Assembly: GCA_003615045.1 (NCBI GenBank)
Contig: ML014320.1
Coordinates: 1-30,120 of the forward strand
Reading direction: 5' to 3'
From: Caulochytrium protostelioides
Lineage: Eukaryota; Chytridiomycota; Caulochytriomycetes; Caulochytriales; Caulochytriaceae
Length of the DNA: 30,120 bases
Shown here: positions 3,971 to 22,237 of the stretch, piece by piece
How the letters are laid out: every line of letters begins with the position of its first letter
Numbering within the stretch: the first letter of the stretch is position 1
Notes under the pieces: generated by a model
Database searches by the model: none
Seen by the model: the letters and a program-made list of their open reading frames with translations, nothing else
Told to the model about the DNA's origin: nothing
Program-made: the position numbers and the translations under genes

Positions 3971-4538
3971 TGCCCATTAGTTGCCTATGGCGCCTCCAAG
4001 TTTGCCCCGGGAGGCAAAGGTGAGATCACCGTCCCCACAGCTCGTACGTACCAGGCGTGCGCCCAGTGGTTCCGCACCCTCCTGATCGACGAGTTCCGGA
4101 TGATCCAGGTGCATGCCGAAACGGATGACATCCTGACCAAGGTGAAAACCCGGGGCCCGAAGAAGGTGCCGATCGCTCGCGCCCCCGACCGAACCGACGC
4201 GGGCCAACCCGGCCGCGCCGACGGCCGTCAACCGGCTCCGAAACTCCCGGGCGCTCGCTCGACCGTGTCGACGCGGGTCAACCCGGTTTGCGAGACCCGG
4301 GTGTATGCTCCGACGAATGGGGTCCTGAAATCCTGTCAACGCCGGCGCCAGGGGATCGTGATCCGAGCCTGAAGCCTCCCCCGGCAATGAAGCCACCCAC
4401 AGCAAGTTTGTGAACCGCGACCTCTATGCCGCATTGAACATTCGACGCTGTCTGGCCTTACCCCCCAGATCGACCGGTGTGCCGCAACCCGGAGCAAACC
4501 AAGGTGCAGTCCAAGTCGGCAAGCTCATCCGACACTGA
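3971..4538 (+). pseudogene. Fanzor (TnpB-like RNA-guided nuclease) C-terminal relic, copy 1
   Basis: A continuous frame from 3971 to 4372 reads PLVAYGASKF..PGGKGEITVPT and then LIDEFRMIQVHAETDDIL. These correspond to the V-x-Y/F-G-x-x-x-F block and the VDEFRTS-x-x-C-x-x-C block of Fanzor proteins. After a frameshift, 4386-4538 reads EATHSKFVNRDLYAALNIRR, the RuvC-III motif with its catalytic aspartate (NRD-x-x-A-A-x-N-I), and stops at TGA 4536-4538. The expected first zinc-finger cysteines are lost (VHAET where C-x-x-C is usual), a TAG lies just upstream (3968-3970), and the N-terminal part with RuvC-I was not found. This is a decayed gene. Fanzors are eukaryotic, transposon-associated relatives of TnpB that cut DNA using a guide RNA made from their own 3' region. 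The assignment rests on motifs only. Confidence 0.72.
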
Positions 4539-4660
4539 ACCAAATGCGCTACTGCCTCGGTGGGGGACCCCTAGAGGGCACCACGGAGGGCATGGCGGGC
4601 GCGTTAGGTGCCAGGAAGGGCCTGTATATAGTATATAGGACCGCGTAAAACAAAAATATA
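4536..4660 (+). ncRNA. Candidate Fanzor guide-RNA scaffold / element right end, copy 1
   Basis: Noncoding sequence downstream of the Fanzor stop is shared with copy 2 at 14968-15075. It can fold as an outer stem, AATGCGC (4543-4549) with GCGCGTT (4599-4605). Inside is a second stem, CCTCGG (4555-4560) with CGGAGG (4584-4589), around a conserved GGGGACCCCTAGAGGGCACC core. A second conserved block, GACCGCGTAAAA and following AT-rich bases, lies near 4639-4660. In TnpB and Fanzor systems the guide-RNA scaffold is transcribed from exactly this position. RNA production is inferred, not shown. Confidence 0.5.
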
Positions 4661-5009
4661 GACAGATGATGGAGTCCTTGTGGCAAGCAAGCTTACGACG
4701 GTCGACGGGATGCATGGTATGGGAAGCCACGGGCTCTGAATTGCTCAGGACGCCCTGAGACCACAGCGTGCCATTACTCACTAGCGACTGTAACGCAAGG
4801 GCGGCGGGGAGGTTCTCATGTCGGTGGCGACGGCGTCATCGGAGCCAGCCCCGTGAGGACCATGTTCGCCACGTCCGGCATGGTGTCGGTGGCGAAGTCG
4901 CGCAAACACGCGATGAAACCACCTGTCCCAGGAAAAGGGGGCCATGCGGCCGGCAGTACCGACAGGACCAGCCCAAAAATGGGAAGAGGAAGGAGGCGAG
5001 TGCAAGTCG
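4661..5009. other. Spacer between the Fanzor relic and the PP2C gene
   Basis: No supported gene. The segment begins AT-rich, near the presumed end of the Fanzor element, and becomes GC-rich as it approaches the 3' end of the PP2C gene read from the other strand. No terminal inverted repeat or target-site duplication was recognised. Confidence 0.4.
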
Positions 5010-14967: not shown

Positions 14968-15075
14968 AGTATATTGATTTTAACGCGGTCGTCCATATAT
15001 TGACCTAATGCGCACACCAATCTTCGGTGGTGCCCCCTAGGGGTCCCCCCCCGAAGCAGACGCGCATTCGGTTCA
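14968..15075 (-). ncRNA. Candidate Fanzor guide-RNA scaffold / element right end, copy 2
   Basis: This is the counterpart of 4536-4660 on the other strand. Read on the minus strand, AATGCGC (15068-15062) pairs perfectly with GCGCATT (15013-15007). Inside, CTTCGG (15056-15051) pairs perfectly with CCGAAG (15027-15022), around the core GGGGACCCCTAGGGGGCACC. Compared with copy 1, the second pair of the inner stem changed from C-G to T-A on both sides. A block GACCGCGTTAAAA and AT-rich bases (about 14990-14968) is shared as well. Confidence 0.5.
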
Positions 15076-15231
15076 GTATCCAATGACTTTGCCGACCACG
15101 GGCTGCAACCTGGTTTGCTCCGGGTTGCGGCACAGCGCTATCGGCCTTTCGGGAAATGCCAGGCGGCGTCGGATGTTCAAGGCGGTATTGAGGTCGCGGT
15201 TCACAAATTTGCTGTGGGTGGCTTCACAGTA
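15073..15231 (-). pseudogene. Fanzor C-terminal fragment, copy 2 (5'-truncated)
   Basis: Directly after the kinase TGA, and in the same frame, 52 codons read CEATHSKFVNRDLNTALNIRR and onward to a TGA at 15073-15075. The RuvC-III signature (NRD-x-N-x-A-x-N-I) is intact. DNA similarity to copy 1 starts abruptly at GAAGCCACCCACAGC (15225 here, 4389 in copy 1) and includes a 24-base identical block, TGTGCCGCAACCCGGAGCAAACCA. Nothing Fanzor-like lies upstream because the kinase gene is there, so this is a 3'-end-only copy. It cannot encode a nuclease alone but carries the complete candidate guide-RNA region. Confidence 0.72.
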
Positions 15232-15941
15232 TCATAATTTAAGAAGCTCCAGCAGCTGCGAGCATACGTTCTTGTACTGCCACGCGTCGCCCTGCACGCG
15301 GCGGAACTGCACGCCCGTCAGGTTCATGAGTGGCACCTTCACGAGCGAGATTTCAAAGTAGAGATGCATCAGGTCCATGGACGCACGCATCCGGCACGCG
15401 GGGCACGCGAGGTGCGCCGCCGCCGCTGACCCCGCGCGGCCGCTCAGCAGCTCGTCTGAGCCTAGCCCTGGTTGGTTGGTCGACAGCCGGGCCATACCGT
15501 TTGCACGATTCGACGTCGACGGCGACGCTTGGTGCTGATGCTGGTGCTGGTGATGCGCGTGCTGGTGATGATGCATCCCGGCCGCGTCCATTCTTCTCGA
15601 TGGGGAGGCCTCATCCACTGCCATCGCGACCCGCGACGGCTGCTCCAGAGCGGCCAAAAGATCGCGCTGCGTGGCGCTCTTCGACAGCGATGTGATGAGC
15701 GCAGAGCGGTCGCCGACGCGGCCGCCCTTCGGTGTCGCAAGTGCGATTCGGCACAGGATCGTGCCCGCATACTCCTCATACACGATACCCTGCACAATCA
15801 GACAGTGCAGCACGTGGTGCCGCACAAACGAGGGTCGCCAGCTCGTCGTCGTCCGCACGCTCCATAGTGACCGCAGCGTCGCTTTGCACATCACGTCGTC
15901 GATGCGGCCCGGACGGTAGCCGGCGCGCAGATCCGCGCCCT

Positions 15942-15973
<32 letters not shown>

Positions 15974-16767
15974 CCCGCCGGCTCGAGGACCGACCGCTGC
16001 TTGTTCTTCTGGCTTTTCAATCGCCCCGGGAGCCCCGAGCGGAACTTCGTTGGCACCGGCGGCACCGGCGGCAGGGGCCCGATCGCGTCGCCGCTTTCGA
16101 CGGCGTCGTCATCCAGCTCCGCCGCGGATGGCGTGCGCTCGCCGGAATTCGAGGCACCGGGCGCATCGTCGGGCAGGCCACAGGCCATACTCGTGCCGAG
16201 ACGGCTGCGGCCCTTTGGCGAGCGGTGGTCGTGGTCCATGGTCGCGAGCCCTTCGGGATGGGACCGCGTCCGCGTGAACAGGGTGAACCGCGACGGCAGC
16301 CGGCGACGCGACCGGCGAGCGTCGACGTCGGCCCCCGCCTGCGGCGTCGCGCGCCCCTCGCGGTCGTCGGACGACGGCGCATCGTCGTCCTCGCCGCGCG
16401 ACGAGGTGGAGGCGAGACTCGCCAGGAAGCGCTCGTACCCCTCGACGTCGAAGCGCCGGTGGCTTTCGAGCGGCGCTTCGTCGTCTTCGGAGCCACCCAG
16501 CGTGTCGCGTGGCGCGGCAGGGAGGCTCGGCAGGAGCCCGCGCTGACGCCAGTCCTGGGCCCAGTCGGCGAGCCCCACGGGCGCCGAAGGGATCCGCCGC
16601 ATCGCGCTGAGCGTTGGGGCGTGCGCGCCGCCCACGGGACGGTGCCACGACAGCAGCTGCGGATCGATGGTGACCATATGCGCCATGCTTCTCGGCGCCT
16701 CGTACTCGAGCGCCCGCACGTACTGTGGTGGGATCGGCGGCACGGGGCCACCCACGGCTGTGTGGTA

Positions 16768-16802
<35 letters not shown>

Positions 16803-19800
16803 TGGCGGCGACCATGGCGGCGGCAGCAGCGCTGGCGCTTTCTGGCGTGAGCGAGCGGCCCGACGGGAAGGGCAGTGCCGCCATCGTGGGGTCCGTGAAG
16901 GCGCGCCCAGGCTCCATCGGCCGCTGCGACGGGGCCATGGCCGAGCGCCGCGGCACCGGATGAAGCATGCGATAGAACGTGGTCAGGTCGTCGTACACGG
17001 GCGAGGTGCCCGTGGTCGCCGTGGCCGGCTCGAGGGCGGCGGTGGCAGTGGACTGGCGCGCCGGCAGCGCCACGTGGTCGGCGGTTCCGTGGGACGGCGT
17101 GGCTTGGACGTCATGCCCCGGCGGCATCAGCGCGAGCTCGGGCGCGGCGCTGCGCTGGGGGGAGGTCGACGGCGGCGACCACGCGATCCCAGGACTCCAT
17201 GCTTGGCCGCTCTTGGCGGACGGCGGGCGCGCATGGGGCTCGGCGGCGGCATGTGACTTGCGCCGGAAAAGGGGCATGAGCCGGGATGTCGCGGGCGGCG
17301 TCCGCAGGAGTTCGGGATCGAGCTCGTCGCCAGCGCCGTCTTCGTTGGCGACGCTCCGCGAGTCCCGCCCGGAGGGCGTGCGGGTCGCGTGCGGGTCGAT
17401 GGTGCGCGCCGGCGAGCGGCCCGATGTCGGCGTCGCGGTCGGCGTCATACCTGTCGCGGCGTCGTAGCGCGTCGGTGTGCTCGCGGGCGATGTTGCCGTC
17501 GATGTGTAGTAGGTACCCGTGGCCGCGTGCTGCCAGATGTCCGCGTCACCGCCGTCCACGCAAGCATCCGCGGGTCGGCGGCCGCCGCCGCGCGAGCGCG
17601 ATGGCGACGGCCTCGGGTTGATGGGTGTCGTCTGCGGTGTGGGCAGATCAGGTGCGGCCAGGGCCGCGGTCTGGATGGCGGCGATGGCCACGCGCTCGGG
17701 GGTCATGGGCGCGACGGCGTCGAGCACGAGCGGCGCCGACGGCTCGACCTGCTTGGAGCGGTGGAGAATGGACTGCTCTTTGGCGAGCTTGCTGACGAAC
17801 AGGTGGTAGATCGCAATCACGGCGGCGCCCGAGTATGGGCTCGCGTGGGGCTCGACGCGCGGCGGCGCCGGCGGCGCCGGGCGCCGGTCGCGGGGGCGAT
17901 TTAAGCGGTCGCCGTCGTCCACGTCTTTCAGGTCGTGGAGGCGCGCTGTCTCGTCCGCCATAATGAGCGACCCACAGCTCAGGTCCGAGAGGGAGATGTG
18001 GAGTAAGCCCTGGGAGGCGCGGTACGTCGGCAGCTGGGGCGTTTCGCCGTAGGCCGGCGGGGAGGGCAGCGGCTTGGCGGGATCAATGTCGCGGTCGCCC
18101 GGGTCGGCGTGGGGGTTGGCGACGAGGCGCTGTACCTTCCTCGTGATCGCTTCGCTCGAGCCCAGGTCGAGGCCGCGCATACACGCGACGATGTGCGGGT
18201 CGACGTGGCGGAGCTGCGGAGGCCGCGGGACATAAAAGTTGTCGGGCGGGCCCGAGTAGCCCTTGTTGAGCCAGGGGTGGTGCTTGATCTCGGACAGAGT
18301 CCACCGCTTCTCGGAATTGACATTGAGGATTCCCGTCAACAGGGCTTTGACGTCCGCCGAAAGGTGAGTCGGAAACTCAAGAATGCCGCGCTTGATCTTT
18401 TCGTGGAGCCGGTAGATGCTCGAGTCGTCGAAGGGCACGCGGCCGCAGACGAGCACGTACAGAATGATGCCGATGCTCCAGACGTCGACTTCGGAGCCGG
18501 TATACTTCTTGGAGCAGAGCAGCTCGGGGGCCGCAAAGTACAGCGATCCACAAAACGTCTTGAGCAAGCGATCGGACGAGTACAGGTTGGCGAGGCCAAA
18601 GTCGATGATTTGAATTTCGCCCCCGCTCCCGATCAGAATGTTCTCGATCTTGAGGTCGCGGTGCACAATCGCATTGCGGTGGCAGTAGTCCACGGCGGAG
18701 ACGATTTGGCGCATGAACTTGCGGGCTTGCCGCTCCTTGAGCTTGCCATGGCTGATGATGTAGTCGAGCATCTGGCCTCCCGCGATGAGGTCCAGAAACA
18801 GATAGATGTAGCGGCCGTAGAACACGATCATATGCATGCGGCAGATGTTCGGGTGGTCCATCAGCAGCATGAGCAGAGCCTCCCGCAGCACGCGCATCTC
18901 CTTGCTGATGTCCGAGTTGGCGCGCATCTCGGCTGTCGCGAAAGCGTCCGCATACCCGGGTTGGTTCTCGGGGAACACGTCATCCGCCAGGCCGCGCAGG
19001 TCGCGCGTGTCCTTGATCACATACGGCGTCTCGAACAGGAAGGGCCCCGTCGGGCGCAGGATGATCTTGCACGCCAGCTGTTGCTGCGTCTGCGTATGCA
19101 CGGCAAGCTTGACCTTGCCCATCGAGCCCTGGCCTAGCGTCTTGGTGAGCTCCCACCCGTCAATGGTGCGCAGCGGCTTCGGGTCCATCCGGGGGTCGTC
19201 GTCCTTGTCCGGCACCGGCGGCAGCGGCAACGACGGCGACGGCGACGGCGACGCGGATGCCGTCGCCATTGCCGCTCCCTGACGCGCCGGCGCGTGGTCC
19301 GTCCGGACGCCGGGCCGGCCCGCCGCCGCGTCGGCAGGGTCCATCTGCAGCATCTGCGTCAGCGGCAGCGTGTCCTGCGGGCGGAGCGACGGCGGCAGTG
19401 GGATCGGGCTTGCTCGGGCGCCGCTGTGCGCAACAGCGGCATGGAGGCCGGCCGCCGTGGGCGGCGCCGCGAGCGCCGGCGAGTCAGCCGCGGGGTCGTG
19501 CTGGAACCGGGCCTGGGCGCGGGCAATCATCGCGTAGAACGCGGCATCGTCCATGTCCGCAAGATCCGCGACGGCAGCGGCGGGCGGGGACGGCGTGGAA
19601 GACGGGATCTGGTGGGCGGCGGCCGCGGCCGGCATGGCCGCCAAAGCCGTCGTCATGGCCGCCAGAGCCGCCGTCGTGGCGGCGGCGGCGGCGGCGGCTT
19701 CCACGGGCGTGGCCGCGGCGAGGACGGCGGCTTCCACGGCGGTGGCCGGCGCAGGCCGCGGCGATAACGACGCGTGGCCGTGGGGATCGGCGTGGGCCTG

Positions 19801-19809
19801 GGCGGCCAT
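15232..19809 (-). CDS. Kin1/Kin2-type (PAR-1/MARK family) protein kinase with KA1 domain
   Basis: A single exon of 1525 residues. ATG 19809 is the first ATG in the frame and has a strong context (GCCGCCATGG). Residue positions below use this start. The kinase domain spans about 217-515: GQGSMGKV glycine loop (226-233), lysine in ACKII (248), HRDLKIEN (383-390), DFG (403-405) and CGSLYFAAPE (420-429). HRDLKIEN, the CGSLYFAAPE activation-loop end and GGQ-x-LDYII are typical of Kin1. A 40-residue insert lies between the ATP-binding lysine and helix C. A long disordered serine/alanine-rich region follows. The KA1 membrane-binding domain is in two halves, about 1294-1363 and 1468-1525 (VKVPLMNLTGVQFRRVQGD, WQYKN, ending LLELLKL), split by a His/Gln-rich stretch. 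Kin1 kinases act at the cell cortex in polarity and secretion. The stop codon abuts a Fanzor fragment. Confidence 0.93.
16768..16803 (-). repeat. GGC trinucleotide run coding polyalanine in the kinase gene
   Basis: A near-pure (GGC)n run on the plus strand that encodes an alanine stretch in the disordered middle of the Kin1-like protein. Length variation would change only the number of alanines. Confidence 0.85.
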
Positions 19810-19921
19810 GGCGGCCGTGCCGAGCGCGGCGCGCGAGGGCGATCTTTTCTCTTCGTTCGTGATAGGGGCGCTGAATGGCCGCTGGACCCCCGCGGCTTTG
19901 CCGATGGCTTCTTTGCTGGGT

Positions 19922-19957
<36 letters not shown>

Positions 19958-22237
19958 AGCGGCGTGGCCGGTGGGCGCGTGCGATGATGAGGCAACAACA
20001 AGGGAACCGAGGGGGGAAAAGGGGTGCCGTGGTGCGCAGGCAGCAACCGATCAGAAAGCAGGGGTTCAGATGTGGCGTGGTACCGACGATTAAGTGGTGA
20101 CGCTACCGCTGAAGGCCCCACTCCTCCTGGGAGGACAACTTGCCCTTAATATCGCGCGCAAGCACGAGGGCGAGCAGCGGCGTCCTGCACGGATAGCGGC
20201 GCGAACGGCCACACGCGGGGGGCTTTATGTGCTCCTCGCATGCGCATGCCACCTCCAACTTTGAAGGTGGTGGCAAAGTAGTGGCAAGCACCCTCAGCAT
20301 CCGTTGGCGCTTGAGTCGACGACGCCGACCGTGACACCCATGGACCGTCCAGTTGGCGCGGTGGTCGCTTGCCGCACCGCGCAGCATGCTGTGTTCGTCC
20401 GTCGCGCCAACGCTGACGCCGGCACCGGTGGCCACGGTCATGCTGGCGGCGGACCCATCACCTTTCGCTTCCGCCGCTGCCGCTGCCGATCAGCCTGCTA
20501 TTGGAACCCGCGTGCGGTTCCCACGTTGCGTTGGCCGAGATGGGCAAGGAGGGCGGAGTAGGAGACGGCGACCACGGCGGGGACGTCGTCCCCGTGCCGC
20601 GAGCTGCCCGGCCAACGCGGGCCATAGCGTACGTCTGGATGGTGACGGCACTTGTGCGTCTCACCCTGCGGTGCTGTGGGCGCCATGGGTCCCGTCGGTC
20701 AGCACAAGAGCTCGGCGCCCGCCCATACCAGCGAGGCGCATGTGCCACGCAAGCCTTGTGCTCAGCCCTTGTCATGCCGGACTTGGTGCCCGGGCGATCA
20801 TCGTGCGATCATCGTGCAGAGCCGCCTTCAATGAAGCATTCAACCGGATTCCGCAAGACGTCTGCAAGACCCGGACCTGCACACAGCTCACCATGCATGG
20901 TTTCACGTTCACAACACCGGCCTTCCTGGCTTGATACTTGGCGCCCTGCGCCACGATGAGATGCTATGGTCTCAAGGCGATTCGGGGGTTCTGCGTATCA
21001 GATCGCAGGATGGCTCATCATTTTCACCTATTCCTAGGGATGGATCACTTCACCGGCTCTTGTTGCGGGTATACTTGATGCCTCCAACAAGGTGTTACTC
21101 CTTCCATGTCAGTGATTGTGAAGCGAGGCGTAGATACACAACTCGAGCCTACGGGCGACATGACAGAAATGGGACATCTGGGGGACCTCATCCCACGTCT
21201 CGTGGCTCTTCGGCTTTTAACGGGGAAGTTTGTTTTACCCATGTTTTGGCCGATTCTATCGAAGGCTTCTGCTATGGTGTCCGCAGTGACACAAGGAAAG
21301 CATCTGCGAGAGTATCTGCATCAGCAAAAGCGTCAGCAACAGCGTCAGCATACGCATGTGCATGAGCCGATGCTTGCATCACGATAATCATGGGGCCATC
21401 AACCGAGAGGAGCATCGTTGCTGCCCACCGCATGATGCAGCCAACGTGCGGTAGCAGCTGCCACACAGCATGGTCGCGTCGCTTCATGGCCGAGACCCTG
21501 CCACGAGGCGCTTGTCACATGGGATTCCTTACCTGGACGATTGACCGACGTGGCGCCGGCTTCCCGCACCTGCATCGGCGGGGCCGATCACCGTCGCGTC
21601 GGCGGCGTCCACGCTAGGCGGCCTGCTGGGCGGCACGGTCAGGGCTTCGCCGCGAGGGGCCAACCGTCCTGCCCTTGCGGGTCCGTGGGCAGGCCGCCGC
21701 CGCCGCCGCCGCTGCCGCCGCCCCGTTCTGGTCCCTTCGTGCCTTGGCCCGCGGCCGCCGCGGCCGCCCGGGTGGGGGCGCCAGGGTCGCCAGCCTGCCG
21801 TCGTCGCGTATGGCGCGATGGCGCTCCGGTGCGCGCTGAGGGCATCACGTAGCACAAGGTGATGTTTACTTGGATTTCGGCGCGATCGGCTAGGACAAGT
21901 ATGCCGTCTGCTGCATGCCGTCGGCTGCATGGCGCAGCGGCCGCTCACGCTTGGCGACCGCCGCCAGGGGCCGTGGCCGCGACGGGTGCGCTAGGAAACA
22001 AGCCCACTCTGTGCACCCTCGACCGCGACCGCGACCCCGTACTATTCGGCCCTCCCGTTGATCGCCGCCTCTGGGTCACTGGTGGTGCCTACCGTGATCT
22101 GTCTCAAACCTCTGGTTTGAAGCCATCTTTCCTTCGTATCGGCCTACTGCGAGAATCCTTTTATCCGTTGTAGCGTCGCCGACGGCAGAACTGCAGTCTT
22201 CGCAGTCCCATTGCATCCGCCCCCGATCGTCGCCAGC
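19810..22237. other. Spacer between the kinase and calcineurin B genes
   Basis: About 2.4 kb with no gene I can support. Near 19925-19965 is a (GGC)n run just upstream of the kinase ATG, in its presumed leader. Around 21290-21360 there are imperfect 12-base repeats of the type GCGTCAGCAACA. The region 20930-21500 is less GC-rich and has open frames on both strands (for example 21106-21387, plus), but none shows a known domain. No RNA gene was recognised. Confidence 0.45.

Follow-up and report, generated by a model that had tools for sequence, protein, structure and literature searches.

The window analysed here, the whole 30,120-nt stretch at positions 1 to 30,120 of contig ML014320.1 of the chytrid fungus Caulochytrium protostelioides, carries two remnants of a Fanzor-like coding sequence, each followed by a noncoding tail. 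Copy 1, on the plus strand (3977..4538), is 5'-truncated and frame-shifted, extends from the RuvC-II region to the C-terminus and ends in a TGA stop codon (4536-4538). The tblastn matches of most protein relatives begin at 3977, in a frame that differs from that of the C-terminal part; likeness to the family at the DNA level begins ~556 nt upstream of the stop, and six stops interrupt the frame of the C-terminus. The 3' tail of this copy, delineated from the stop codon to the right end by alignment with 40 other copies (4536..4660), harbors a nested hairpin recognized from sequence and fold (4543..4605), with outer arms AATGCGC (4543-4549) and GCGCGTT (4599-4605) and inner arms lying within 4553-4563 and 4581-4592. 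The right end itself, GGACCGCGTAAAACAAAAATATA at 4638..4660, corresponds to a motif common to the family, which was matched at 4637-4659 with two mismatches.

Copy 2, on the minus strand (15073..15230), is strongly 5'-truncated and consists of an open frame of ~51 codons closed by a TGA stop codon (15075-15073). Its tail, placed by sequence and by alignment with other copies, runs from the stop codon to the right end (14970..15075) and includes a nested hairpin apparent in the sequence (15007..15068), the outer arms of which are at 15068-15062 and 15013-15007 and the inner arms of which are CTTCGG (15056-15051) and CCGAAG (15027-15022). The minimum-energy structure of the hairpin stretch of copy 2 retains the outer stem and pairs the inner part otherwise. 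Inspection of the sequence found both tails and their nested stems where the first-pass annotation had placed them, and likewise the core, the G-T wobble and the broken inner pair of copy 1 as it had described them. No Rfam family reached the gathering threshold in a search of the window. The RuvC-I part with its DPG string is missing from both copies and, devoid of most of the gene, neither is able to make a nuclease. The start of copy 2 (15230) lies a few bases at most from the stop codon, at 15232, that closes a 1637-codon open frame on the same strand (15232-20145); this frame may be a gene ending in or beside the insertion.

Genomic copies of the tail and their coding sequence

The C. protostelioides genome (20.9 Mb in 337 contigs) was searched for further copies. 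The tail proved to be a repeat: its 21-base core, GGGACCCCTNGGGGGCACCAC, yielded 172 genomic matches with up to two mismatches and none in the reversed-pattern control, and the right-end motif yielded 35 matches with up to three mismatches, again with none in the control. A query spanning the coding end and tail of copy 1 (4375-4680) had at least 40 genomic matches, all 40 of the best candidates scored (of 526) being matches, while the DNA upstream of the element in copy L051, used as a control query, matched only itself. Fanzor-like C-terminal sequence was present upstream of the tail in all six tail-core matches fetched, each of them a zero-mismatch match outside the list of 40 obtained with the window query, with L082 retaining only the last part. 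As far as sampled, the tail thus belongs to a Fanzor-like element, and the linkage that had been proposed from the window alone extends to other loci.

The read-through of L051 retrieved at least 68 protein relatives (7998 candidates sharing most words with it were scored), 62 of which measured 539 to 725 aa; the five best were 42% identical to the read-through, with 99-100% of the query covered. The relatives numbered P0001-P0073 form a wide, mostly metagenomic set, many members of which are annotated with PF26935; P0016 is encoded on a 560-kb contig. When 177,635 PDB sequences were searched at E-values of up to 0.1, a profile of the family found two matches only, Parasitella parasitica Fanzor 1 (E 3e-16) and Spizellomyces punctatus Fanzor (1.9e-9), where the single read-through sequence had found none. 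The predicted model of P0001 (618 aa, pLDDT 85.5) was matched at ranks 1-7 of the PDB fold search exclusively by Fanzor chains, with E-values of 2e-19 to 3e-15. Protein relatives, family profile and fold matches thus concur with the first-pass annotation that the sequence upstream of the tails is Fanzor-like. Pfam matches were absent from three C. protostelioides fragments searched, PF07282 had no match in the C. protostelioides genome and only one of the eight proteins scanned (P0066) reached its cut-off; the 26 pattern matches in viral contigs included no relative. One annotated C. protostelioides protein, P0060 (CXG81DRAFT_23488, contig G000:C6), is a 554-aa gene model in which a Fanzor-like fragment takes up the first ~145 residues and the remainder is unmatched by Fanzor relatives; it is either a mis-model or an exonised fossil.

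Catalytic motifs are retained in these relatives. The RuvC-I aspartate (D371-P372-G373), the RuvC-II glutamate (E535 of P0001, in DEFR) and R578-D579 of RuvC-III (NRD) are each invariant in 14 of 14 aligned relatives, and, among the 50 relatives (of 73) for which both C-terminal motifs were recognized, 48 contain the string DPG, as do the Caulochytrium copies L049 and L056. In Fanzor1 proteins the RuvC-II glutamate is described as repositioned, six residues ahead of the zinc-finger site (PMC10711439). At this site, no CxxC was found between the DEFRTT-like and RD(L/V/I/M/H/Q)N motifs in any of 50 relatives, the count being confined to 50 of the 73 as one bordering motif was unmatched by the regular expression in the other 23. 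A looser count likewise gave 0/57, with 14 of the 57 stretches ending early at RRD or WRD. One or more single cysteines are left in most relatives. Since the C4 zinc finger is part of the Fanzor motif as published (Bao and Jurka 2013, PMC3627910), we refer to the clade as Fanzor1-like rather than as a plain member of the family.

Ends, decay and mode of spread of the copies

An 18-base right-end motif was present with up to five mismatches in 28 of 41 copies, ending 102-126 nt past the stop codon, compared to 0/40 in a downstream control; the common right end lies ~113 nt past the stop. The 5' starts of the 41 copies, three of which fall at contig edges, are scattered from -153 to -1782 relative to the stop, and protein matches to the 618 residues of P0001 start anywhere from residue 5 to residue 583. 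Comparison of the flanks of 36 of the 41 copies distinguished 26 separated start points; upstream flanks were unrelated but for one short cross match, and flanks downstream of the right end gave no cross match at all. The longer copies are staggered in the same manner: four of the longest extend to the gene start or into a 5' UTR, L069 and L076 sharing one within which L071 starts later, and L037 starting later still. In L039, L043 and L060, which are rearranged or nested, the start given by DNA similarity differs from that given by protein matches.

No inverted repeat of the right end was detectable at the left ends, the mean being 16.6 mismatches in 31 positions over the 41 copies versus 16.9 for shuffled motifs, and 13 to 18 in the four longest copies. 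A reading of the copies as internally deleted, two-ended 'ghosts' was rejected, as they have no left end in common. No poly-A was found. Target-site duplications were sought in 23 of the 41 copies, namely those with a right end of up to five mismatches, leaving aside contig edges, nested or rearranged copies and L064. A clear one was seen in L056 only (1/23), where TATTGAGACC stands at both junctions (10 bases exact, 13/14 with flanking bases), 10 bases being reached by 0 of 506 mismatched copy pairs; over the 23 copies the mean duplication was not above chance (4.87 vs 4.71, with 62/300 shuffles as high).

Several features of individual copies were observed alongside. Short direct repeats, GGGCCTATATAT-like or TATATAAACG-like, occur in and just after the last 40 tail bases of L066, L040, L036 and L049, and recall the variable 3' tails of some retroelements. 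L043 has two successive tails, as the sequence flanking one copy on its 5' side itself resembles a tail; insertion may therefore take place at, or adjacent to, the right ends of earlier copies. The long Fanzor-like copy L049 further contains an unrelated 333-bp repeat (L049:2329-2661), near copies of which are found at C218, C53, C11 and C2 (79-87% identity).

The copies have decayed without sign of protein constraint. Over the last 150 coding bases plus tail, their median identity is 79% and the closest pair of distinct copies is 91% identical; L064, which does not differ from L065 over the stretch compared, was left out of alignment statistics. In 152 columns of 40 copies, codon positions 1, 2 and 3 differ pairwise by 0.186, 0.170 and 0.164 (p=0.70 for position 3 against the other two), and the subfamily-diagnostic columns (9, 5 and 6 at positions 1, 2 and 3) likewise have no excess at third positions. 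When frames were followed back from the stop codon, 29 of the 41 remnants had internal stops; five lack a stop codon close to where it would be expected, and the seven that are open are short (51 to 202 codons); every remnant of more than 202 codons that was assessed is interrupted. With all codon positions equally diverged, the copies are fossils that have drifted free of constraint on a protein; the two window tails resemble each other through common descent, not through selection on each.

LINE and SINE insertion by target-primed reverse transcription leaves a fixed 3' end, shortened 5' ends and a flanking duplication. The fixed 3' end and many 5' start points of the present copies, together with one flanking duplication, suggest a spread of this type. 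Our preferred reading, to which we assign a probability of roughly 0.6, is that one Fanzor1-like element spread via RNA to high copy number, and that each tail closes the 3' side of a dead, 5'-truncated copy of it. The ancestral element would have been copied by target-primed reverse transcription with an enzyme supplied in trans, copying having begun at the fixed 3' end and often halted before the 5' end was reached. The inverted repeat, which starts from the stop codon, would have been a functional RNA hairpin of the living ancestor, most likely its guide-RNA scaffold, and might also have provided a handle for the reverse transcriptase.

A related explanation, which we consider unlikely, grants the hairpin the second of these functions only: it would be no guide RNA but merely the 3' signal by which a LINE/SINE-type reverse transcriptase, acting in trans, recognized the Fanzor-like transcripts that it mobilised. 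The fixed 3' end with scattered 5' ends and the single target-site duplication suit this explanation, and the want of a third-codon-position excess even in diagnostic columns is as expected of passengers. Against it stand the position of the tail, between stop codon and right end, where the first-pass annotation had held omega RNAs to arise and where that of Spizellomyces Fz1 is described (PMC10432273), and the distribution of candidate enzymes. The genome has 19 reverse-transcriptase (RVT_1) matches, all of them more than 10 kb away from each of the 35 right-end matches, and the LINE endonuclease PF14529 was not found in it. Listed positions, compared by eye, placed RVT_1 within 10 kb of two of the 100 core matches listed (of 172; on C183 and C94), where ~1.8 would be expected, and one match of the window query (C203) lies less than 10 kb from a reverse-transcriptase match. 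Reverse transcriptases are thus no nearer to the tails than by chance. These findings weigh against the preferred reading as well, as do the lack of poly-A, the single clear duplication among 23 copies and the faint covariation and modest fold scores of the tails. On G000:C183 (9330-11840, minus strand), a reverse-transcriptase match precedes a Fanzor-like fragment and tail by ~0.8 kb on the same strand, an adjacency that can be due to chance. Integrase has five matches, one of them beside a reverse transcriptase (C41).

If the tail instead formed the hairpin terminus of a DNA element such as a Helitron2-like one, with 5' parts deleted later, abortive DNA transposition should have retained both ends, whereas the truncated copies have neither a common left end nor an inverted repeat, and 26 separated starts among 36 copies would call for many independent deletions, each extending past the left end. 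We hold this explanation to be very unlikely despite the precedents from which it draws, Fanzor1 having been reported in Helitrons (Bao and Jurka 2013, PMC3627910), Helitron2 being described with hairpins and variable 7-19-bp duplications, and fungal Fanzor elements such as MCi-2 with differing 5' regions (PMC3627910).

The tail hairpin as a candidate RNA

Compared to dinucleotide shuffles, the hairpin stretches of copy 1 (85 nt) and copy 2 (83 nt) fold with z-scores of -1.90 and -2.58 (13/200 and 2/200 shuffles folding as well), and longer stretches of the same copies with z-scores of -1.79 and -1.76, so that a single window copy is only modestly unusual. L042 and L050 form an almost continuous hairpin from the stop codon on (z -2.95 and -3.85). 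In an alignment of 33 of the 41 tails, the mean z-score of -1.1 for the tails was hardly below the -0.92 of the coding end, the flank having -0.2. Across 33 copies, the two hairpin arms pair at -25.1 kcal/mol, as opposed to -16.2 kcal/mol with a reversed 3' arm, a large difference which indicates that the ancestor had a real inverted repeat.

RNAalifold returned six pairs, none of them compensatory. As the outer 5' arm is poorly placed in some subfamilies of the alignment used for RNAalifold and for pair counts, an alignment-free test was added, in which pairing within a copy had no advantage over pairing with an arm taken from another copy (p=0.34). Pair counts gave mixed results: 76.4% of cells were paired versus 74.4% in shuffles (1/500 as high), 14 cells were changed on both sides versus 8.7 (5/500) and the covariation score was 0.116 versus 0.098 (11/500), while neither the number of pairs with both sides changed (97/500) nor the further pair types (144/500) exceeded shuffles, and sliding the partner by three columns raised the covariation score to 0.126, above that of the true partner.

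The exchange of a T-A for a C-G pair, put forward from the two window copies as a change on both sides of the stem, does exist; as covariation it fails, being confined to two related copies of 40. The pair is C-G in 29 copies, C.A (unpaired) in five, T-A in two and other in four, the T-A carriers being window copy 2 and L055, which are 91% identical to each other. The C.A form is the unpaired intermediate. The exchange, rejected as proof of covariation, is most simply one event in one lineage. One-sided subfamily changes at tail positions 66 and 67 still pair by wobble, the change at position 69 breaks pairing, and at position 49 the unpaired form is the commoner. Nor is the tail more conserved than the coding end between source lineages (18/107 vs 20/152 diagnostic columns, p=0.48).

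The evidence for covariation is therefore weak to absent. The likeness of the tails, which the first-pass annotation had taken for conservation of an RNA, is that of neutrally drifting sequence, and covariation across many copies, by which a scaffold might have been recognized, was largely lacking, with the qualification that fossils are unable to show later selection. That annotation was thus half right in kind, the sequence being Fanzor-like and the tail in the right place, and too strong in its claim, which is partly supported. Taken in full, namely that a live Fanzor family has both window tails as conserved and functioning guide-RNA genes, it is highly improbable: the place between stop codon and right end, the stem loops and the slight excess of paired cells favor it, and a tail could in principle act without an ORF of its own, but most of the gene is missing in both copies, most remnants contain stops, the copies decay neutrally, RNAalifold found no compensatory pair, swapped arms pair equally well and the slid partner scores higher.

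With covariation this faint, even an ancestral RNA role is something we can only infer; given a position and shape that suit an omega RNA, we put at about even odds that the ancestral inverted repeat was the guide-RNA scaffold of the living element. Joining this to the preferred reading, a zinc-finger-less Fanzor1-like clade would have spread via RNA, transcripts from the nuclease gene through the scaffold to the right end being reverse transcribed into new sites, usually with loss of 5' sequence, and one hairpin would have served both the nuclease and the copying enzyme. We regard this combination as speculative and quite unlikely to hold in all its parts.

Relation to known Fanzor elements

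Fanzor genes are known from DNA elements (PMC3627910). What is new here is a set of Fanzor-like copies with a common 3' end, many 5' starts and no detectable inverted repeats, and this truncation series and the zinc-finger-less clade are more interesting than the likeness of the two tails with which the analysis began. A Fanzor-like family with LINE/SINE-looking insertions would connect RNA-guided nucleases with spread by reverse transcription in eukaryotes, and a clade with catalytic residues but no zinc finger would test the role of the finger. A literature search, largely of papers accessible without subscription, found no report of a LINE/SINE-like Fanzor family or of a zinc-finger-less Fanzor clade.

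Among described systems, the Fz1 element Spu-1 of Spizellomyces punctatus, in which a 75-nt scaffold is placed between stop codon and right end (PMC10432273), resembles the present family in its chytrid host, its ~2-kb locus with a single ORF, its many partial copies in one genome and its Fanzor1 protein fold (TM 0.70/0.74). In contrast to the Caulochytrium family, which has no detectable inverted repeats and in which copies miss the left end, Spu-1 is described with 30-nt inverted repeats and 134 'ghost' copies that have both ends (PMC10432273); the Caulochytrium-type clade further differs from it by the loss of the C4 zinc finger. Parasitella parasitica Fanzor 1 (PDB 9cf0), the best PDB sequence match of the family profile, is a larger protein with an FRI domain, and its omega RNA is reported to have a 7-bp first stem loop, common to three Fanzor1 omega RNAs, and one further stem loop before the guide (PMC11423790). 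Its zinc-finger cysteines, visible in the aligned chain, are absent from the clade studied here.

Two elements described by Bao and Jurka come close in the arrangement of their copies. CMe-1A of Cyanidioschyzon merolae, likened to the present family by description and not by sequence, has ~150 copies, each ~80% identical to the consensus, and no inverted repeats; its class is given as unknown, and the available part of its description presents a complete ~3 kb consensus and no 5'-truncation series (PMC3627910). Copies of MCi-2 from Mucor share a 3' part with the Fanzor gene and differ on the 5' side, and are similar to those of Caulochytrium also in having duplications (11-12 bp) and no inverted repeats (PMC3627910). 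The shared part of MCi-2 is 99% identical, and its 5' modules differ by subfamily (PMC3627910), whereas the Caulochytrium copies are progressively shortened.
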